Below are positions 52,198-60,624 of a stretch of DNA of 64,000 nt, one piece after another (the first letter of the stretch is position 1; every line of letters begins with the position of its first letter). Made by a program: the position numbers and the translations under genes. The DNA comes from an uncultured Eubacteriales bacterium (lineage in GTDB: Bacteria; Bacillota; Clostridia; Oscillospirales; Acutalibacteraceae). The notes below the pieces were generated by a model that was not told where the DNA came from, made no database searches, and worked only from the letters and a program-made list of their open reading frames with translations. The stretch spans positions 60,139-124,138 of the forward strand of contig ONAL01000002.1 of NCBI GenBank assembly GCA_900315785.1, written 5' to 3'.

Positions 52198-52269
52198 TTT
52201 AGTACCATCCTTTATTTAGTCTCGCTATTCGTAGGCGGCTTTACGCACTTATAGCCCACAATATGCGGC
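52198..52269 (-). promoter_or_regulatory. rplU leader resembling the L21 leader RNA
   Basis: About 72 transcribed bases precede rplU. They contain ATATTGTGGGCTATAAG and AGTGCGTAAAGCCGCCTACG, with complementary GGGCT/AGCC segments. This resembles the L21 leader known upstream of rplU in Firmicutes, thought to control L21 expression; I base this on position and remembered motifs only. Confidence 0.5.
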
Positions 52270-52275
52270 TTATAT

Positions 52276-52304
52276 ACTATACCACAACGAAAAATGGTTG
52301 TCAA
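52276..52304 (-). promoter_or_regulatory. Strong sigma-A promoter of rplU-prp-rpmA
   Basis: TTGACA (52299-52304), 17-base spacer, TATAGT (52276-52281), immediately after the end of the SMR-like transporter gene. Confidence 0.82.
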
Positions 52305-52312
52305 TAGTTTTT

Positions 52313-52657
52313 TTACAGGGAGTAGATTATTATTCCTATCACAATAATCGAAAGTCCAAGCACCTTCTGCTTCGAGATTTTCTCCTTTAAAAACAGCCAG
52401 CTCATAAACGCAACAAAGATGTAGCCCGCCGATTCGAGAATCGGTCCCAGCGACAGCGGGATAACCTTATACGCCATAATTGAGCAGAGCGTCGCCGCAA
52501 AGAATATTATGTACGCGAAGATTACGCGCGGATTCATATACTCCTTAATCTTGCTGTCGTACTGTTTGAGAGCGGCTTTTTTGAGAATAATCTGGGAAAT
52601 AGAGGAAATGAAAACTCCGAACAGAAAAATCAGCGCGAAAAGTATCTTCTCATTCAT
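52313..52657 (-). CDS. SMR/EamA-type half transporter (ArnF-like)
   Basis: Membrane protein of 114 residues with four hydrophobic helices and the size and layout of small multidrug resistance-type proteins, including half-size flippase subunits ArnE and ArnF. The segment SLGPILESAGYIFVAFMSWLFLKEKISKQKVLGLSIIVIGI is typical of the SMR/EamA end (loop followed by Lys-Gln-Lys and a final helix). It overlaps the second half transporter by 8 bases, and both follow an ArnC-like gene, so the pair likely flips a lipid-linked sugar. This is inference from context. Confidence 0.72.
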   Translation of the reverse strand: MNEKILFALIFLFGVFISSISQIILKKAALKQYDSKIKEYMNPRVIFAYIIFFAATLCSIMAYKVIPLSLGPILESAGYIFVAFMSWLFLKEKISKQKVLGLSIIVIGIIIYSL

Positions 52658-53012
52658 CGGCTCTCACCACCACAATCACGCCGATTACAACAATCACAGC
52701 GCCCAGAATCATATTCCACTTGACGGCTTCGCCGAAGAACAGCGCTCCCCAGAGTATTCCCCACGCTATGATGACCGCCTTATTCGAGTAGGCTGTATTG
52801 AGCGGAAGCTTCTTGATAATCTGCTGCCAGACTATCGCATAAACTCCGAGGTTTAAGATAATCAATCCGTACCAGAAGATAAAACTGAACGACAAGAAGT
52901 CGCATTTACCCGCGTACTTGGTACAGATACCGCCGAGCGAATAGAGAAACAGCTCGATGTGAAGAGCTATGAAATATTTAATTTTGGTCTTTTTGTCAAT
53001 CGTTGTCGTCAA
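52650..53012 (-). CDS. SMR/EamA-type half transporter (ArnE-like)
   Basis: Membrane protein of 120 residues with four hydrophobic segments (FIALHIELFLYSLGGICTKYAG, FIFWYGLIILNLGVYAIVWQQI, KAVIIAWGILWGALFFGEAV, MILGAVIVVIGVIVVVRADE) and GWGLWGALFFGE-like SMR end. It probably forms a heterodimer with the next gene's product, as paired SMR proteins do. It overlaps the GT2 gene by 17 bases and the second half transporter by 8, so all three are coupled. Substrate inferred as an undecaprenyl-phosphate sugar. Confidence 0.72.
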   Translation of the reverse strand: MTTTIDKKTKIKYFIALHIELFLYSLGGICTKYAGKCDFLSFSFIFWYGLIILNLGVYAIVWQQIIKKLPLNTAYSNKAVIIAWGILWGALFFGEAVKWNMILGAVIVVIGVIVVVRADE

Positions 53013-53934
53013 AATTAATCGTCTCTTTCACTACAAACTGCGGAGAATCATTGAGGCTGATATAAATTCGTCCGAGGTACTCGCCTATCATACCGAGCAT
53101 AAGCATAATAAGACCGCCGACAAAGAGCATAATCGCGACGGTTGAGCTCCAGCCGACGCTGATGTCGGGACGGACGAGCTTCTGGATAACCGTAATAATA
53201 CCGAATACAAAGCCGATAATAGCGCAGATAACGCCGATTAGAGACGAAAATCTCAGAGGCTTTATCGAGAACGCCGTAAGACCGTTCAGCCACAAGCCGA
53301 GCATTTTGAAGAAGGTGAAGGTTGTGGTTCCCGAAATACGCTCTCTCTCCTCCATCTCGACATTGATGATGTCCGAGGTTGTGCGGAGCAGAAGTCCCGT
53401 AAAGTACGGATACGGATTCTTGTACTTGATAATCTCCTTTACGATAAAGGAGCGCATAATCATAAAGTTTGTGAACTGGCTTTTCTTCGGCTTGTCGAGG
53501 ATAAACTCGGTCATTTTGCGGTTTACGAAGGTGCCGAAGTTTTTGAAAACAGACTGCTTGCGTTCGGGATACGCGGCGATGCTTACGTCGTGACCCTCCT
53601 CGATAGGCTCAAAAAGCTTCCAGAAGTTTTCCATGGGACACTGACCGTCGTCGTCCATTACAACAACATAATCGCCTGTTGCGTAGTTAAGCCCAGCCAT
53701 TACCGCGCCCGGACGGTTCATATTCTTGGCAAAGTTGATAACCTTGAAACGCTTATTGTCGCGCGCGAGCGTTCTCAGCTTTCCGAGAACGTTATCGGGT
53801 GAGCAGTCGTTTACCGCAATAATCTCGTAATCGTACTCATACCGCTGCGATACGACCGAAATAATCTCCTCCGTTACTGGCTCAATTGTCTTTTCGCTGC
53901 CGTAGCAGGGAATTACAAAGCTTATTTTTTCCAA
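52996..53934 (-). CDS. ArnC/DPM1-like polyprenyl-phosphate glycosyltransferase (GT2)
   Basis: Glycosyltransferase of 312 residues. The GT-A fold shows SFVIPCYGSEKTIEPV, YEIIAVNDCSPDN and the metal motif VVMDDDGQCPMENFW near residue 93; two C-terminal membrane helices (~230-250 and ~265-290) and GEYLGRIYISLNDSPQFVVKE are the DPM1/ArnC/GtrB pattern. Such enzymes load a sugar from a nucleotide onto undecaprenyl phosphate at the inner leaflet. TTG start 53932-53934 with AGGGGG nine bases up. It overlaps the ArnE-like gene and follows the epimerase. Confidence 0.88.
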   Translation of the reverse strand: MEKISFVIPCYGSEKTIEPVTEEIISVVSQRYEYDYEIIAVNDCSPDNVLGKLRTLARDNKRFKVINFAKNMNRPGAVMAGLNYATGDYVVVMDDDGQCPMENFWKLFEPIEEGHDVSIAAYPERKQSVFKNFGTFVNRKMTEFILDKPKKSQFTNFMIMRSFIVKEIIKYKNPYPYFTGLLLRTTSDIINVEMEERERISGTTTFTFFKMLGLWLNGLTAFSIKPLRFSSLIGVICAIIGFVFGIITVIQKLVRPDISVGWSSTVAIMLFVGGLIMLMLGMIGEYLGRIYISLNDSPQFVVKETINFDDND

Positions 53935-53936
53935 GC

Positions 53937-54920
53937 TTACAGCCCCCTAAATCTATCTGAATTCATTTCCTTTTTGTAGTCCTCGAGGTAGGAAATATAA
54001 TCGTACTCAGGCTCGTAGCCCAAAAGCTCGCGCGCCTTGTCAATATTCATATGGCTGTCGTCGCAGGAGCGCTTTTCGGGACAGGGAATGATCTTTGAGG
54101 GGTTGTCCTTAGGTGAAAAGACCTTGATGATACCCTCAATCTGGTCTCTCATTGTGACCATCAAATCCGCCCCGACGTTGAAGTAACCGCTTTCGCAGTC
54201 CGCGAACAGAGCCTTGTATATAAACTGACAGAAATCCTTGACGTAGACAATATCGCGCTTCTGGTCGGGATTGCCCCAGAGCTCGATGTCCTCGCCGTTA
54301 ATCGCTCTGTCGATGATATATCTGTAAGAAATCTTTCTGAGCTCGCCGTCAACATAATACTCTTTCTCGGGAGAATAGAGGTAAATGTTGGGAAGTCTGA
54401 GGATAAAATACCTGATACCGAAGTCGTGGAAATAGGTTTTGATAATCTGGGTAGCCGCCGTCTTGGTAATCGCGTAAATTGTGTGGTCTGTGCCGTACTT
54501 GTAGCGTATCGGCATATCGGGCAGAAATTCCTTGTTTTCAGGGAGATAGCCGTGCAAGTCGGAAATTGAGATTGTGTAGATAACACGGTTGATTCCGCTG
54601 TGCTTGAGGTGCTCCATAATGTTGAGCGTGCCCTTGATATTTACGTCAACATAATCCTCTGGGGTGTAGCCCTTCATTCTGGCAGGCAGAACGCCCGAAA
54701 GGATAACCGAAGCGTATACATCATCGGTCGGAATCTGCTTGTATTCTTCCTTGCTGCAAACGTCTACCGAATAATACTTGATACCGAAACGGTCAAAGTA
54801 GTCTGTCTTTCTTCTGCCGACCGCGATAATCTCATACTTATCCTTGAGCTTTTCGCAGAGATAATCCGTAAGGTAAACGCCTGTGGAGCCTGTAGCGCCG
54901 AAAATAATTATCTTCTTCAT
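53937..54920 (-). CDS. NAD-dependent epimerase/dehydratase (extended SDR)
   Basis: Nucleotide-sugar enzyme of 327 residues. The Rossmann start IIIFGATGSTGVYLTDYL holds the GxxGxxG motif; the catalytic YxxxK is YAITK in DHTIYAITKTAATQII near 150; TISISDLHG precedes it. The second half includes NIYLYSPEKEYYVDGE and DIVYVKDFCQFIYKALF, typical of dTDP- or UDP-sugar epimerases and reductases. The specific reaction (4-epimerization, 4,6-dehydration or 4-reduction) cannot be read. It is 2 bases after the GT2 start region and follows the ATP-grasp gene by 3 bases. Confidence 0.88.
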   Translation of the reverse strand: MKKIIIFGATGSTGVYLTDYLCEKLKDKYEIIAVGRRKTDYFDRFGIKYYSVDVCSKEEYKQIPTDDVYASVILSGVLPARMKGYTPEDYVDVNIKGTLNIMEHLKHSGINRVIYTISISDLHGYLPENKEFLPDMPIRYKYGTDHTIYAITKTAATQIIKTYFHDFGIRYFILRLPNIYLYSPEKEYYVDGELRKISYRYIIDRAINGEDIELWGNPDQKRDIVYVKDFCQFIYKALFADCESGYFNVGADLMVTMRDQIEGIIKVFSPKDNPSKIIPCPEKRSCDDSHMNIDKARELLGYEPEYDYISYLEDYKKEMNSDRFRGL

Positions 54921-54923
54921 AAC

Positions 54924-56027
54924 CTACCTCTTGTCAGTGATAATATAGTAACCAAGCCTTGTGGAGCTGTCGGTAATATGTCCCAGATTTGAGTAATCAA
55001 TATCGGAAACGCGGTAGAGCTTGTCCTTCGGGAACTTGTTCATCTCCTCGATATCCTCCTCGGTAAAGAGGAAGTGAATCTCCGCGCTGTTATTGTCGGG
55101 TGTTTCCTTAATCTCGGGCTCATTTCCGCAGGCGATGTCGATGACCATTTTCATAAAGTCGTTGCCTGTGGAGAGATACACAAGGTCGGAGCCTATGCAG
55201 TCGCCGCCCATTCTCGCGCCGATTTCGATAATACCGATGTTTCCGTCCTTATCGACCTTGAATTCGGAATGGCCCGCGCTGTTTCTGACGTTAAGCGCGT
55301 CAAGCGCCTTGAAAACCTCGCGGATTGCCTTTTCCTCGAGCTCCTTTGAGAGACCCGACGGTTCCCTGTGCCCTGTCTCGATAAAGTGCGGAGCACCTGT
55401 GGTAAACTTCTTGGTGGTCGCAAGGTGATGATGAACGCCGCCGAAGGAGACCGTCTCCATACTGTATTCGTCGCCCTCGATGAATTCCTCGACAACCGCC
55501 GATTTCTCGAACGAATAGCCGCAGGCTTCTCTGACGGCTTCCTCTATGCCGTCGAGGGTTTCGAGCTTCATAATGCCTCGGCTGCCCGAACGGTCGGTGG
55601 GCTTTACAATTACGGGAAATCTGAAATCGGATATCAGATTTTTGTCGAAGCTCTCCCCTGTTTTCACAAACCTCGGACAGCTCACGCCGCCGTTGAGAAA
55701 CGCCTTTCGCATTTCCGCCTTGTTGGTCTGCATAGCCGTAAAGCGCGTGGGATTACAGGTGAGCCCGAGCTTTTCGGCGACGTAGTTTACCGTCACCGAA
55801 GCCAGATCAGAGCCTATGGAGCAGACTCCGTCGGGTTCAATCTCCCTGCACTTTTCGAGGATTTCGTCCTTTTCGATAATGCTCACGGGATAGAAATAAT
55901 CCGCCGTGTATTTTCCTACGGCTCCGTCCTCCCACGCGAAAACGTGGGTTTCGTAGCCTAAGGATTTCGCCTTTAAAATGAGCTGATTCTGAAAATCGTT
56001 AGCTCCTATGATTACAAGCTTCTTCAT
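54924..56027 (-). CDS. ATP-grasp enzyme, carboxylate-amine ligase-like
   Basis: Protein of 367 residues. A pre-ATP-grasp Rossmann domain (KLVIIGANDFQNQLILKAKSLGYETHVF) is followed by the grasp: PVIVKPTDRSGSRGIMKL near 140, VVEEFIEGDEYSMETV near 185 and the metal-binding NIGIIEIGARMGGDCIGSDLV near 260. Members ligate a carboxylate to an amine via an acyl phosphate. Inside a sugar-amine operon, a likely job is aminoacylating or otherwise acylating the sugar amine, but that is inference. ATG 56025-56027 is chosen; it overlaps the aminotransferase stop by 4 bases. Confidence 0.85.
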   Translation of the reverse strand: MKKLVIIGANDFQNQLILKAKSLGYETHVFAWEDGAVGKYTADYFYPVSIIEKDEILEKCREIEPDGVCSIGSDLASVTVNYVAEKLGLTCNPTRFTAMQTNKAEMRKAFLNGGVSCPRFVKTGESFDKNLISDFRFPVIVKPTDRSGSRGIMKLETLDGIEEAVREACGYSFEKSAVVEEFIEGDEYSMETVSFGGVHHHLATTKKFTTGAPHFIETGHREPSGLSKELEEKAIREVFKALDALNVRNSAGHSEFKVDKDGNIGIIEIGARMGGDCIGSDLVYLSTGNDFMKMVIDIACGNEPEIKETPDNNSAEIHFLFTEEDIEEMNKFPKDKLYRVSDIDYSNLGHITDSSTRLGYYIITDKR

Positions 56028-57151
56028 CTGAAAAACTCTTTTACCTTCTCGCAAATAAACTCAACCTGGTTTTCCTTAAGTCCGTAGTAAAGCGGAAGTC
56101 TCAGAAGTCTTTCGCTCTCTCTTGTGGTGAACACGTCATCGCCGAAGAAGCGTCCGAAGCGCTGACCCGCGAGCGATGTGTGAAGCGGAATATAATGGAA
56201 AACAGAGCCGATTTCGTACTGACGAAGGTGCTTTATCATCGCCGAACGCTCGTCGATATCCTTAAGCTTGATGTAAAACATATGCGCGTTGTGCACACAG
56301 CCGTCAGGAATAACAGGTAACTCGAGCTTACCCTCGTCCTCGAGAGGCTTCAGGAGCTTATAATATGTATTCCAGGAGTTGAGCCTGTCGTCGTTTATTA
56401 AGTCGGGGTTTTCAATCTGAGCGTAAAGATACGCGCAGTTGAGCTCGCTCTGGAGATATGACGAGCCCACATCTACCCACGTGTATTTATCAACCTGACC
56501 GCGGAAGAACTTGGAACGGTTTGTTCCCTTTTCGCGGATAATCTCGGCGCGTTCGACGTCGCACTCGTTATTGATGAGAATCGCGCCGCCCTCGCCCGAG
56601 GAATAGTTCTTGGTTTCGTGAAAGGAGAAACAGCCGAAGTCGCCCATTGAGCCGAGCGCCTTGCCCTTGTAATATGCGTTAACGCCCTGAGCCGCGTCCT
56701 CGATAACCTTGAGGTTGTGAGCCTTGGCAATGCTGAGAATCTTGTCCATCTCACAGGAAACGCCCGCATAATGAACGGGAACAACAGCCTTTGTCAAAGG
56801 AGTGATTGCGCCCTCGATGAGGTTCTCGTCGATATTCATTGTATCGGGACGGATATCGACAAACACAATCCTCGCACCTCTGAGCACAAAGGCGTTAGCC
56901 GTGGAAACAAATGTATACGACGGCATAATTACCTCGTCGCCTTCCTTGATTTCGGCAAGAATTGACGCCATTTCGAGAGCCGAGGTTCCCGAGGTGGTGA
57001 TAAGCGCCTTTTTGGTTTTTGTCATTTCCTCGAGCTTTGAGTTGCACAGCTTCGTGAACTCACCGTCACCGCAGATTTTGTGGTTCTCAACAGCCTGTTT
57101 TATGTAGTTTTGCTCGTTGCCGACATACGGCGGTACATTAAAACTAATCAC
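56024..57151 (-). CDS. Sugar aminotransferase, DegT/DnrJ/EryC1 family, WecE/ArnB-like
   Basis: PLP enzyme of 375 residues. It resembles E. coli WecE (dTDP-4-amino-4,6-dideoxygalactose transaminase) from its first residues (ISFNVPPYVGNEQNYIKQAV), with TTSGTSALEMA, the Asp motif VIEDAAQGVNA and the Schiff-base Lys in SFHETKNYSSGEGG near 180. It transfers an amino group to C4 of a keto sugar nucleotide. A GTG start (57149-57151) with GGAGAACAAAA upstream is used; it overlaps the stop of the GT-C gene (GTGA) and the start of the ATP-grasp gene. Confidence 0.92.
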   Translation of the reverse strand: MISFNVPPYVGNEQNYIKQAVENHKICGDGEFTKLCNSKLEEMTKTKKALITTSGTSALEMASILAEIKEGDEVIMPSYTFVSTANAFVLRGARIVFVDIRPDTMNIDENLIEGAITPLTKAVVPVHYAGVSCEMDKILSIAKAHNLKVIEDAAQGVNAYYKGKALGSMGDFGCFSFHETKNYSSGEGGAILINNECDVERAEIIREKGTNRSKFFRGQVDKYTWVDVGSSYLQSELNCAYLYAQIENPDLINDDRLNSWNTYYKLLKPLEDEGKLELPVIPDGCVHNAHMFYIKLKDIDERSAMIKHLRQYEIGSVFHYIPLHTSLAGQRFGRFFGDDVFTTRESERLLRLPLYYGLKENQVEFICEKVKEFFR

Positions 57152-58980
57152 TTTTGTTCTCCTTGGTTTGATATGACTTGGTATAAAACTACCGAGCCAA
57201 ATTTATTTAATTCCTTAAACGAAATATGATTACCGTTTTCGGAATAATGGTCGTTAAAATACTGCTCCAGCTTTTCCCTATAGCTTTCGATTGAAATATA
57301 GACAATCCCGCTGTCAACCATTTCGCGGTAAAGCTTTCCGACGCCGTTGTCAGCCTTGATTTTTTCGCATATATCCAGACCGACTAACGAAGTTGATGAA
57401 GGGATAAGATTATCGGGAATCTTAGAAAGCGAGAGGCAGTTATCGGGATTCTGGAACATCGCAGGCATTCCTGCGCCCGCGCCGAGCACGAACACCTTAT
57501 TGCTGTTATCGGTGATATAATCGTATAATCCTGTATAGTCGCGGTCGTAAACCTCCGACTTGTATACCTTGAATCCTGCCAATGCGGAAAATACCGCCAG
57601 CACAACGCTGAGAGCGATAATACAATATTTCCTTAAGTCAGGCTTATACTGATTCAGTTCCTGTCTGAGATTTGATTTATCGATGAAAAGCAGCAGCGAG
57701 ATAATTGCGGGGAAATACAGCGTAAAGGTTGACCTGAAATTAACTCTGGTAAAGAAAAGGTAAAGCTGCAGAGCGCACACAACCATTGAAAGCGACGCGA
57801 TAAACCCGAAATGATATCGGTTGAATGTATACGCGGTCAGCATAACAGCGCCGAACACAAACACCGCGAGGATATTATAATCGTGCACCTTTACTATCGC
57901 AAAGGTTATTACCCAAATCAATGTCAGAAGAATCGGCAGCAACAACCTGAGCTTTTTTCTCAGCAAAACTGCTAAAACGAGCGCCAAGACAACAATCGCC
58001 GCCAAGGCTATCGAAACGACTTTGTTCTCTGCAAAATAGTCTTTGATATTATTGATTGCGGAGAGCTTGTCCGAGTTTATATCACTGATTTTTGAAAGCC
58101 TGTCCGCAGTGAAGAAATCATCATCTAAAGCGCAGCGTAGAAATACGTCGATATCGTTCTGAGAGTTAATTCCGACGCTCTGATACGCCTTTTCGTTTCC
58201 TTCAAACGGCAATGACGGATAATCGTAAAGATTGCTGCGGTTCTCGCTGTAGTTATAATATTCCCGATATCCTTCGGTATTTGACTTGACAGCGTTGGAG
58301 TATAGCTGAAGTCCCGAGAGTGAAACAAACAGTACCAGGAACAAAACAGCAAGTTTAAAGTTCCTGTCCTTTGAGGTGAATCTCTTTGATTTTATTACAG
58401 GCAAAGCCGCGTTATACAATACGCAAACGCCGATTACGACACTTGCCGACAGAAACGCGTTGAACCTTATCAGCGACGAATAGATTATCAGAATAACCGC
58501 AAGAATTCTTTGAATCGCCTTTATGTACCCTTTATCGGCTTTATAAGAGGCGTAATACAGCAGCAGATAACCCGCCGTAACCGATACCACCGAAATCATC
58601 GTCCACTGAAGATGAACAAAGTAAAGGCTAGAAAACAGAACTGCTATTATAAAACAGGTGAAAATCGCTCTTTTCGGCGAACCATTAAGCAAACCGAGCG
58701 TGACATAATACACGGAAGCAGCCGAGAGAAAGCCGACAACAAGCATAAAAACCGAGTAAACATTCACGTTACCGAATACACTCTGAATCGGAATTAACAA
58801 ATCCGAGAGAAAACGGCTGATAAATATACCGCGATTATTGCCTTTGATTATCAGAAACGCGTTAGTGTAGTCATCACCCGAGCAAAGGATTTTGAACCCG
58901 CTGAGAGCAAAAAACATGAGAAATGTTGTCAGGGTGATAACACACGCGTAAAAGAGATTACTTCTTAGAATTCGTTTCAT
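57148..58980 (-). CDS. Multi-membrane glycosyltransferase, GT-C fold (GtrII/ArnT-like)
   Basis: Membrane protein of 610 residues with about 10-12 hydrophobic helices in ~1-460 and an extracytoplasmic C-terminal region (~470-610). The first external loop has CSGDDYTNAF, an acidic DD pair like the catalytic Asp of GT-C enzymes, and the C-terminal part is soluble. This matches GtrII and ArnT-like enzymes that take a sugar from a polyprenyl phosphate carrier and attach it to a surface polymer. Its start shares a base with the folD stop (TGATG). It heads the sugar operon; the acceptor is unknown. Confidence 0.75.
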   Translation of the reverse strand: MKRILRSNLFYACVITLTTFLMFFALSGFKILCSGDDYTNAFLIIKGNNRGIFISRFLSDLLIPIQSVFGNVNVYSVFMLVVGFLSAASVYYVTLGLLNGSPKRAIFTCFIIAVLFSSLYFVHLQWTMISVVSVTAGYLLLYYASYKADKGYIKAIQRILAVILIIYSSLIRFNAFLSASVVIGVCVLYNAALPVIKSKRFTSKDRNFKLAVLFLVLFVSLSGLQLYSNAVKSNTEGYREYYNYSENRSNLYDYPSLPFEGNEKAYQSVGINSQNDIDVFLRCALDDDFFTADRLSKISDINSDKLSAINNIKDYFAENKVVSIALAAIVVLALVLAVLLRKKLRLLLPILLTLIWVITFAIVKVHDYNILAVFVFGAVMLTAYTFNRYHFGFIASLSMVVCALQLYLFFTRVNFRSTFTLYFPAIISLLLFIDKSNLRQELNQYKPDLRKYCIIALSVVLAVFSALAGFKVYKSEVYDRDYTGLYDYITDNSNKVFVLGAGAGMPAMFQNPDNCLSLSKIPDNLIPSSTSLVGLDICEKIKADNGVGKLYREMVDSGIVYISIESYREKLEQYFNDHYSENGNHISFKELNKFGSVVLYQVISNQGEQK

Positions 58981-59831
58981 CAGTCGATATTATTCTGAAG
59001 CTTCGCGGCTTTGAGCGTGTTTTTCATAAGAGTCGCGATTGTCATGGGACCTACTCCGCCCGGAACGGGAGTGATAAAGGAGCACTTGTCCTTCACATCG
59101 TCAAAGTCCACGTCGCCGCAGAGCTTATTATTCTCGTCGCGGTTCATACCGACGTCGATAACCACAGCGCCGTCCTTGACCATATCAGCCTTGACGAACT
59201 TTGCTACGCCGATTGCCGCAACAAGGACATCGGCTTCGCGTGTGATTTCGCTGAGGTTCTTTGTATGGCTGTGGCAAACGGTTACGGTGCCGTTCTCGTG
59301 AAGCAAAAGCATTGCCATAGGCTTGCCGACGATGTTGCTTCTGCCGATAACCACACAGCGTTTGCCGTCAACCGAGATATCATACGAATGGAGCATTTCC
59401 ATAATGCCCGCGGGAGTACAGGGCAAAAAGTCATAGTCGCCGAGCATTATTCTGCCGACGTTCTGCTTATGGAACGCGTCAACGTCCTTTAAGGGGCTGA
59501 TTGCCTCGATAACCGCGGCGTCGTCAAGTCCCTTTGGCAAGGGAAGCTGGCAGAGGATACCGTTGATATCCTTTCTCTCGTTGAGCTCGTTTACCAGCGC
59601 GAGCAGCTCTCCCTGAGTTGTAGTTGCAGGCAGGGCGTACTCTACCGATTTGAAGCCTACGAGCTCACAGGCTTTCTTCTTGTTATTCACATAAACTCTT
59701 GAGGCAGGGTCGTCGCCGACAAGAATTACCGCAAGACCCGGGGTTACGCCCTTAGCCTTGAGCGCTTCCGTCTCAATTCTTACTTGCTCTTTTACCTCTG
59801 CCGAGACTTTTTTTCCGTCTATAATCGTCAT
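58980..59831 (-). CDS. folD: Bifunctional methylene-THF dehydrogenase/cyclohydrolase FolD
   Basis: Interconverts 5,10-methylene-THF and 10-formyl-THF. Of 283 residues, the catalytic Lys lies in [13 protein letters not shown] near 55, the substrate loop [16 protein letters not shown] and DVDAFH are present, and the NADP-binding part ends with [18 protein letters not shown] near 270. ATG 59829-59831 follows AAGGAGGACGAATTCT. It overlaps the end of lgt by 59 bases and its stop overlaps the GT-C gene, joining it to the sugar operon. Confidence 0.96.
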
Positions 59832-60624
59832 AGAATTCGTCCTCCTTGTTTCTGTTGACAATCAGCATAATAATTCCGAAAATCAGAATCAACGCCGAAA
59901 TAACCTGACTTACCCTCAAGCCCCAGAACGGGAGCATAAGGCTGTCGGTTCTCAGACCCTCAACTATCATTCTCTCAAAGCCGTACCAAACGAGGTAGGC
60001 ATAGAGCACCTGACCTGGGTATTTCTGGAATTTCTTTGATAAAAAGTGAATAAGTACAAAGCCCAGCAGACACCAGAGCGATTCGTACAGAAAGCACGGA
60101 TGTACTCCGACGAGCCCTGTGTTTTCGCTGACCATTCTCCACGGAAGGTCGGTCGTGGTGCCGAACGCTTCCTGGTTGAAGAAGTTGCCCCAGCGGCCTA
60201 TTCCCTGTCCGATGAGGAAGCCGAGCACGGCGACATCGAGAATCGGTAGAATCTTGGCTTTCTTAACCTTCGCGACAATCACGCCGCCGATAAAGCCGCC
60301 GATGATTCCGCCGTAGATTGCGAGTCCGCCCTCGTGTATCTTGAAAATATCGAGCGGATTGTTGATATATTTATCGAGCGAGAACAGCACAAAGAAAAGT
60401 CTCGCGCCGATGATTCCCGTTACAATTCCGACGAGCACACAGTCAAAAAGCGTGTCCCACTCCACGTTGAAGCGTTTTGCGGAAAAATAAGCATACGCAA
60501 GCGCCAAAAGCATTCCGCAGGTGATGATGATACCGTACCAGCGGACGTCATAGGTGCCGATTGAGAAGGCTACGGGGTTAATCTTGAAATCGAGCCCCAA
60601 GCCCGGAAAAGATACATTATACAT
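59773..60624 (-). CDS. lgt: Prolipoprotein diacylglyceryl transferase Lgt
   Basis: Membrane enzyme of 283 residues that adds a diacylglyceryl group to lipoprotein Cys. Seven hydrophobic helices are visible, with the signature [21 protein letters not shown] near 140, and the YGGIIGGF motif near 100. The predicted lipoproteins in this window (small lipoprotein, ZnuA, amylase) would be its substrates. GAGGTGAGTT precedes the ATG. The basic C-terminal tail ([16 protein letters not shown]) overlaps folD. Confidence 0.95.

Follow-up and report, generated by a model that had tools for sequence, protein, structure and literature searches.

The window analysed here is a 64,000-nucleotide stretch of contig ONAL01000002.1 from an uncultured Eubacteriales bacterium, the source genome of which is 91.5% complete. 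Seven open reading frames (ORFs) fill positions 52313-58980 of its minus strand and, according to the ORF list and a check of it, contain no internal stops. In the order of transcription they code for a GT-C-like membrane protein, a WecE-type aminotransferase, an ATP-grasp ligase, an extended short-chain dehydrogenase/reductase (SDR), a family 2 glycosyltransferase (GT2) and two half-transporters of the small multidrug resistance type (SMR1 and SMR2). A previous sequence-only reading of this DNA had described seven coupled minus-strand genes, and their order and coordinates were borne out, all ORFs being found in the places it gave. We consider it somewhat probable (about 0.58) that the seven genes form one cassette for the synthesis and export of an N-acylated 4-amino-4,6-dideoxy sugar that decorates a surface polymer.

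The same reading had proposed linkage within 1-17 bases, and with the ATG start for the ATP-grasp gene all junctions do overlap or abut within 1-17 bases. The GT-C and WecE genes overlap by 4 bases, and so do the WecE and ATP-grasp genes when the latter starts at the ATG at 56027, which is the likely start; with the TTG at 56054 that overlap would be 31 bases. Gaps of 3 and 2 bases separate the ATP-grasp gene from the SDR gene and the SDR gene from the GT2 gene, while overlaps of 17 and 8 bases join GT2 to SMR1 and SMR1 to SMR2. Some analyses used ATP-grasp and SMR1 proteins starting a few residues inside their ORFs (54924-56021 and 52650-52997), and ATP-grasp residues are numbered on a stretch of 365 residues, two less than from the ATG.

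Analysis of the aminotransferase (375 aa; 56024..57151, minus strand), which carries a DegT domain (Pfam), revealed scores of 623 bits against the NCBIfam model PRK11706 (cut-off 375) and 617 bits against TIGR02379 (cut-off 435, i.e. 434.85). The protein shares 64% identity with E. coli WecE (375 columns) and 29% with ArnB, and the ArnB model PRK11658 gave 181 bits, under its cut-off of 631. Hence, of the earlier designation "WecE/ArnB-like" the WecE part stands and the ArnB part does not, and an ArnB-like substrate was rejected on the two identities. Since the enzyme is a WecE-type dTDP-4-keto-6-deoxyglucose C4 aminotransferase and not ArnB, the most probable sugar is dTDP-Fuc4N, a dTDP-4-amino-4,6-dideoxyhexose, and not UDP-Ara4N.

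The ATP-grasp ligase (367 aa from the ATG; 54924..56027, minus strand), for which acylation of the 4-amino group is predicted, scored 68.5 bits against ATP-grasp_4 (Pfam). A profile of 42 sequences searched against the PDB matched 4dim, annotated as a phosphoribosylglycinamide synthetase, with 143.8 bits, the L-amino-acid ligase BL00235 with 142.9 bits and BacD with 85 bits. The same three (BL00235 as 3vot) came first in the fold search with the predicted model (pLDDT 90.7), whose PDB matches were 4dim, 3vot, BacD/YwfE and RizA, the alignments with L-amino-acid ligase folds showing 17-24% identity. The ATP-grasp fold is present together with conserved ATP/metal segments that align with those of L-amino-acid ligases. 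Residues K140, E178, E253, E266 and R270, to which we assign presumed ATP or metal roles, are invariant in the 42 sequences, and E266 and R270 line up with the first and last residues of the E-x-x-A-R segment in BL00235 and BacD. E215 and H218 align with the E and H of the BacD segment E-T-S-H, of which BL00235 keeps the E only, with Tyr at the H position. The invariant D274 aligns with BacD Trp332, named as a key residue for substrate choice in passages of PMC6920838. An amino acid is our best guess for the donor, as judged from the sequence alignments and the predicted model, and the idea, raised in the earlier reading, that an acyl group or amino acid is amide-linked gains support from the profile, the aligned segments and the fold matches.

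The GT2 (312 aa; 52996..53934, minus strand) scored 98.7 bits against its Pfam model, and the NCBIfam models of PgfS (161.8 bits) and ArnC (127 bits; ArnC cut-off 529) matched it over nearly the full length, both under cut-off. BLAST aligned residues 1-306 with E. coli ArnC (E 3.6e-34), and a simple hydropathy count placed hydrophobic stretches near the C terminus at 222-240 and 258-276. The protein accordingly conforms to the ArnC-like GT2 with two C-terminal helices described in the sequence-only reading, and a predicted polyprenyl-phosphate GT2 with C-terminal helices, such as characterises multi-component systems, is present.

SMR1 (120 aa; 52650..53012) and SMR2 (114 aa; 52313..52657), both on the minus strand, are predicted to be a flippase subunit and its partner. 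EamA scored 22.7 bits on SMR1, under the cut-off of 28.2, and 36.9 bits on SMR2, over it. The ArnE model was the best NCBIfam match of either protein, and ArnF gave 19-23 bits (cut-off 99). At 0.001, ArnE was matched by 24/28 SMR1-family sequences, more than any other model, and by 18/28 rows of the SMR2 alignment, one of which is E. coli ArnF itself. BLAST to E. coli ArnE was not significant (SMR1 E 0.51; SMR2 no match), and the SMR1 and SMR2 profiles found weak EmrE matches among PDB sequences (best E 0.044 and 3.5e-4). No conserved acidic residue was detected in helix 1, where no column reached 30% acidic residues in 28 SMR1 and 27 SMR2 sequences. Passages of PMC9574504 describe SMRs that carry lipids as often having Asn in place of the central Glu, and lipid-transporting SMR pairs as uncommon and mainly proteobacterial. 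The one GtrA protein detected in the window's genome lies outside the cassette.

The GT-C-like polytopic membrane protein (610 aa; 57148..58980, minus strand) had no Pfam or NCBIfam match over cut-off and showed twelve hydrophobic helices in a simple hydropathy count. The best PDB match of its AlphaFold model (pLDDT 76.5, pTM 0.80) was ArnT, 5f15, with E 5.6e-4, and ranks 1-7 were all GT-C proteins (5f15, 5ezm, DPY19, AglB, DPY19, PglB and PglB). D36, D253, T127 and three Arg residues are invariant in 26 aligned sequences of its family, the window's included. From these model matches the protein is predicted to take the sugar off undecaprenyl phosphate and pass it to an external acceptor. The proposed analogy of the SMR, GT2 and GT-C proteins with ArnE/F, ArnC and ArnT is thus supported by the NCBIfam models, the ArnC BLAST and the ArnT model match, although scores under cut-off and a match by fold mark the proteins as kin of those families and not as members. 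Three LCP-family proteins in the window's genome fit a wall polymer as acceptor and prove nothing.

Relatives of the ATP-grasp protein were collected by a scan of genome contigs, and the best 80 of 219 were retained, a set that is by construction selected for ATP-grasp. L046 (loci are designated by L numbers) was dropped, its ATP-grasp matches being in two pieces (it is labelled ATPG2 in the GT2 tree), so that 79 loci were counted; L010 and L024 are identical in sequence, and the stretch in L138 is also that of L041. Neighbour families were called by one-seed profiles with score thresholds chosen after the scores were seen, and since many contigs are short the counts within 9 kb are lower bounds. 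Within that distance of the ATP-grasp gene we found WecE in at least 63 of the 79 loci, GT2 in at least 61, an SMR pair in at least 53, a GT-C-type membrane protein in at least 51, and RmlA and RmlB in at least 17 each. All four of WecE, GT2, SMR pair and GT-C-type protein occurred together in 39/79. GT-C-type here comprises six families, namely YfhO, DUF2142 (with PMT matches), DUF6056, the window's family, a 560-aa family (f14) and a 483-aa family; by Pfam only YfhO and DUF2142 are GT-C, DUF6056 is a domain of unknown function, the window's family, f14 and the 483-aa family have no Pfam match over cut-off, and the GT-C reading of the window's family comes from the model. The hosts are mostly gut and rumen Clostridia, with some Erysipelotrichaceae, Treponema ruminis and four records titled Candidatus Saccharibacteria (L026, L028, L036 and L038); locus L072 belongs to a cultured carrier, Longicatena caecimuris DSM 29481. 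Cassettes in the Saccharibacteria records are unexpected for reduced genomes, and an error of naming or binning is possible.

Close ATP-grasp relatives were found in 3/120 genomes of the window's family, its own included, so that the distribution is patchy. Among 60 genomes of the genus, WecE was over cut-off in 15 and the SMR1 profile (E 1e-12) matched in 14. Both were present in 13, SMR1 only in 1, WecE only in 2 and neither in 44 (Fisher 2.7e-10, which in related genomes is not a count of events; the tables for the genus tests were compiled by hand). Co-occurrence in other genomes, proposed earlier as a check, is therefore seen both in the loci with all four families and in the way SMR1 tracks WecE in the genus. 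As a separate observation, some cassettes carry 2-4 different ATP-grasp genes (e.g. L016, L017, L025 and L072), which could mean the stepwise addition of a short peptide to the sugar.

A second set of 25 loci, the window included, was seeded with the WecE matches of the genus and of an order-wide search (11/295 genomes), and GNAT proteins were assigned by Pfam for one representative and by our own profile for the others. GNAT was present in 11 of these loci, ATP-grasp in 9, both in none, and neither in 5, of which L120 and L125 lie on contigs of about 4 kb, the others being L124, L139 and L142; L124 carries an acyltransferase-3 and a hexapeptide protein. An SMR pair was found in 18/25, and paired SMR genes thus stand beside enzymes of the undecaprenyl-phosphate sugar type in the window and in both sets of loci. 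In L113, L115, L117, L118 and L121 the operon reads WecE, GNAT, GT2, SMR, SMR, the 483-aa membrane protein, RmlA and RmlB, and the GNAT gene directly follows WecE in 10 of the 11 GNAT loci (the exception is L123). In the ATP-grasp-seeded set, the start of the ATP-grasp gene lies no more than 200 bases past WecE in 38 of the 63 loci with WecE; in E. coli, wecD adjoins wecE. The plain reading is that GNAT and ATP-grasp both acylate the 4-amino group. Because its genus-mates have a GNAT instead in similar operons, the ATP-grasp protein probably has the N-acylating role on Fuc4N that WecD plays in the enterobacterial common antigen (ECA) pathway, but with an amino acid. The N-acyl step appears to be exchangeable among the relatives, being occupied by a GNAT, other ATP-grasps, other acyltransferases, or nothing next to WecE. 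The proposal that the ATP-grasp replaces the formyltransferase and ArnD needs correction: none of those domains occurs in the seven products, but as a counterpart the ligase resembles one of a WecD-like N-acetyltransferase (GNAT) and not of the ArnA/ArnD pair.

The GT2 tree (66 rows, quick method, midpoint-rooted, direction not given) grouped the window's GT2 with that of L015, an ATP-grasp cassette (77% identity), and apart from its GNAT-bearing genus-mates. Eight loci of Lachnospiraceae and other Clostridia (L054, L055, L061, L062, L063, L076, L080 and L085) have a fixed layout of their own, in which the cassette GT2 lies on the opposite strand, with genes for GtrA, CotH-kinase and VTC-domain proteins after it (domains determined on a single representative of each).

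The SDR (327 aa; 53937..54920, minus strand) is of the epimerase/reductase type, scoring 103 bits against PF01370 (Epimerase), and its Gly motif and Y149/K153 are invariant in 21 aligned sequences, the window's included. The best PDB profile match was 4zrm, a GalE-like epimerase. The SDR is 20% identical to E. coli RmlB (E 2.9e-10) and matched ArnA only at E 0.083. Identity with RmlB was rejected, since TIGR01181 gave 55 bits against a cut-off of 365 and the active-site stretch reads S-I-S-D instead of the Thr-Asp-Glu of the 4,6-dehydratase. Because the matches are weak and Thr-Asp-Glu is missing, the SDR is not shown to perform the ArnA or the RmlB step; what survives of the earlier parallel with ArnA is the extended SDR. 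A requirement for the SDR in the shared chassis was likewise rejected, as among the loci seeded with WecE it occurs in 0/11 with GNAT and 4/9 with ATP-grasp, and among the 79 ATP-grasp loci in 25. In L013, L026, L027, L046, L082, L087, L143 and L144 a second DegT-type aminotransferase lies beside an SDR variant in ATP-grasp cassettes, as if the two made another amino group or an amino-acid-like precursor.

In the pathway we propose, WecE would aminate dTDP-4-keto-6-deoxyglucose to dTDP-Fuc4N, for which the homology is strong. The ATP-grasp protein would activate a carboxylate, an amino acid being its most probable source, and join it to the 4-amino group, as its fold, its relatives and its replacement by GNAT suggest, and the SDR may modify the sugar or its acyl group. 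From its ArnC/PgfS homology, the GT2 is expected to load the sugar on undecaprenyl phosphate. SMR1 and SMR2 would then flip the lipid-linked sugar as a pair, and on the outer side of the membrane the GT-C protein would hand it over to a wall polymer, a glycolipid or a protein.

Several observations weigh against this pathway. Neither RmlA nor RmlB was over cut-off in the window's genome; in the nearest relative, L015, both directly follow SMR2, where the window has an L21 leader, which counts in the pathway's favour. RmlB was over cut-off in 35/60 genomes of the genus and in 13/15 of the WecE-positive ones (Fisher p = 0.015), the two without it being the window's own and one that is 77% complete. 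Either RmlA and RmlB lie in the missing sequence of the window's genome or the substrate comes from elsewhere. The ArnE model scored 30 and 28 bits on SMR1 and SMR2, far under its cut-off of 92, and the GT-C match is weak, with TM 0.30-0.39, rmsd 19 and a single match under E 0.001. An SMR pair is missing within 9 kb in 26/79 ATP-grasp loci, in some because of contig ends. The ATP-grasp gene directly follows WecE in only 2/9 WecE-seeded loci (the window and L138), so that sameness of position with GNAT is clear for the window and not general. In L139 and L142 the SMR pair comes immediately after WecE and no acyl enzyme intervenes, and L070 (Treponema), an ATP-grasp locus, has both ATP-grasp and GNAT. 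The 9 GNAT rows of the GT2 tree all fall to the same side of a single branch (SH-aLRT 98), so that the swap may have happened only once; the Fisher value of 0.001 for the exchange of GNAT and ATP-grasp is not independent evidence.

The ligase also has PurK and PurT among its fold matches, which makes formate or some other acid a possible donor. PurT is an N-formylating enzyme that uses formate, and the ATP-grasp protein might use free formate to N-formylate the amino sugar, in the way that PurT acts on GAR, or add an acyl group other than an amino acid, the cassette being otherwise the same. PurT was matched by fold (1kjq and 1kj8) and by model (PRK09288, 33.7 bits), and a formyl group would restore the parallel with Arn; against these stand the profile scores of BL00235 (142.9 bits) and BacD (85 bits), with PurT unnamed among 45 matches, and a fold search in which 3vot and BacD held ranks 2-6 and PurT ranks 41 and 49 of the best 50 listed. 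We regard this alternative as unlikely. An action of the ligase outside the sugar, on a dipeptide or other metabolite, would leave it near WecE only through a shared surface-polysaccharide region. Passages of PMC6920838 describe characterised relatives as making free dipeptides, the place of the ATP-grasp gene in the cluster varies, and some loci (e.g. L041, L043 and L056) have ATP-grasp and WecE without an SMR pair. The start of the ATP-grasp gene within 200 bases after WecE in 38/63 loci with both, and the GNAT at the post-WecE place in sister cassettes, make such a role rather less likely still.

Doubt may also be directed at the export half of the cassette. In an ordinary capsule-type pathway a cytoplasmic glycosyltransferase would use the sugar, and the SMR pair would export a drug, a polyamine or other unrelated cargo; excerpts of the SMR literature do list drug and polyamine exporters among these families, and in L012, L024 and L070 the genes lie among many polysaccharide-type genes with the SMR pair missing. 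The joint occurrence of WecE, GT2, SMR pair and GT-C-type protein in 39/79 loci, the tracking of WecE by SMR1 across the genus and the lack of any acidic residue conserved in helix 1 of the SMR proteins argue the other way, and we hold this explanation to be the most improbable of the three. The preferred reading remains a cassette for the synthesis and export of an N-acylated 4-amino sugar.

A broader extension of that reading is put forward only tentatively. Gut Clostridia and some neighbours may share a modular system in which an amino-acid amide is formed in the cytoplasm on a lipid-carried 4-amino sugar, flipped by ArnE/F-like SMRs and attached to a surface polymer, with the acyl module (amino acid, acetyl, other acyl or none) swapped on a constant chassis. 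If true, this would be a route to an amino-acid-bearing, positively charged envelope without Dlt D-alanylation, and the acyl swap would tune surface charge and antigenicity. DltA was found in 0/60 genus genomes (E 1e-100) in a search for this protein alone among the Dlt proteins, which found it in 2/14 controls (B. subtilis and L. lactis).

At the upstream boundary a folD-like gene (58980..59861, minus strand), named by reading the protein only, has one base (58980) in common with the GT-C gene and lies outside the function of the cassette. The downstream boundary is an L21 leader RNA (52208..52281, minus strand; Rfam RF00559, 37.9 bits, gathering 36), which begins about 31 bases past the last cassette gene, and the ORFs beyond it are, as we take them from reading alone, rplU, prp, rpmA and further on obg. 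Recent foreign DNA was rejected on base composition, the G+C content of the cluster (46.5%) showing no clear departure from that of equal-size windows (mean 47.9%, s.d. 1.0). At third positions only the GT-C gene has a lower G+C (0.507), the other nine computed genes ranging over 0.60-0.66.

By analogy, the cassette is one that would work like the Arn, GtrABC and CsbB-GtcA-YfhO systems, but it is not the Arn pathway. It shares with E. coli arnBCADTEF a predicted C4-amino sugar, an ArnC-like GT2 expected to act on undecaprenyl phosphate, two putative SMR half-flippases, a presumed ArnT-like GT-C protein and a compact operon. The differences are that Arn uses ArnB and a UDP-pentose whereas the cassette uses WecE and a predicted dTDP-hexose, that the seven products contain no domain of the Arn formyltransferase or deformylase (the search covered these products of the genome), and that an ATP-grasp and a separate SDR are added. 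Since the host belongs to a Clostridia lineage, lipid A is not expected as the acceptor. The Fuc4NAc branch of ECA (RmlA/RffH, RmlB/RffG, WecE and WecD) is alike in WecE, in RmlA and RmlB of related loci and in the N-acyl enzyme beside WecE; there the sugar is used by WecF, whereas in the cassette it is predicted to be placed singly on undecaprenyl phosphate and flipped by the SMR pair, with the ATP-grasp replacing WecD. The L-amino-acid ligases BL00235, BacD/YwfE and RizA share the ATP-grasp_4 fold and were the top matches along with 4dim, but their acceptor is an amino acid while a sugar amine is predicted for the cassette ligase. In the Campylobacter capsule, according to passages of PMC11800379, glucuronate is amidated by an ATP-grasp.

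Among Gram-positive systems, CsbB-GtcA-YfhO, GtlA-GtcA-GtlB and GacI-GacK-GacL combine a polyprenyl-phosphate GT2, a small flippase and a GT-C protein, the parts predicted for the cassette too; their flippase is of the GtrA or Wzx type, whereas the cassette has an ArnE-like SMR pair and a built-in amino-sugar synthesis module. The passages available of a review of Gram-positive multi-component systems name GtrA- and Wzx-type flippases and make no mention of SMR or small multidrug proteins (PMC8035078), and an excerpt of a Listeria/Bacillus paper recognises a flippase class made up of SMR proteins, ArnE/F for instance, and includes phage GtrA in it (PMC7389260). Mycobacterial Rv3789 and Citrobacter youngae ORF14 are small four-helix SMR- or EmrE/ArnE-like proteins proposed to flip polyprenyl-phosphate sugars for GT-C enzymes (passages of PMC11127046 and PMC5836110); as described there, they are set apart from the cassette by pentofuranose donors and by being single genes with no amino-sugar or ligase genes. 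Among the matches listed in the open-licence PMC literature none described this cassette, the nearest being a predicted Fuc4N on Clostridium butyricum flagellin in passages of PMC13317340 and the Campylobacter ATP-grasp mentioned above. The earlier statement that an SMR flippase with a sugar module in a Gram-positive operon is undescribed thus holds within those matches, and has to be narrowed in that SMR-like flippases had been proposed in mycobacteria (Rv3789). A recurrent SMR-pair cassette equipped to make its own sugar would widen the range of ArnE/F-like flippases to gut Clostridia, would lead one to expect a Fuc4N-type sugar on the surface of many gut species not yet studied, and would point to a ligase possibly able to attach amino acids to sugars. 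What we call new here is the combination of an ArnE-like SMR pair with an aminoacyl-type ligase in Clostridia.

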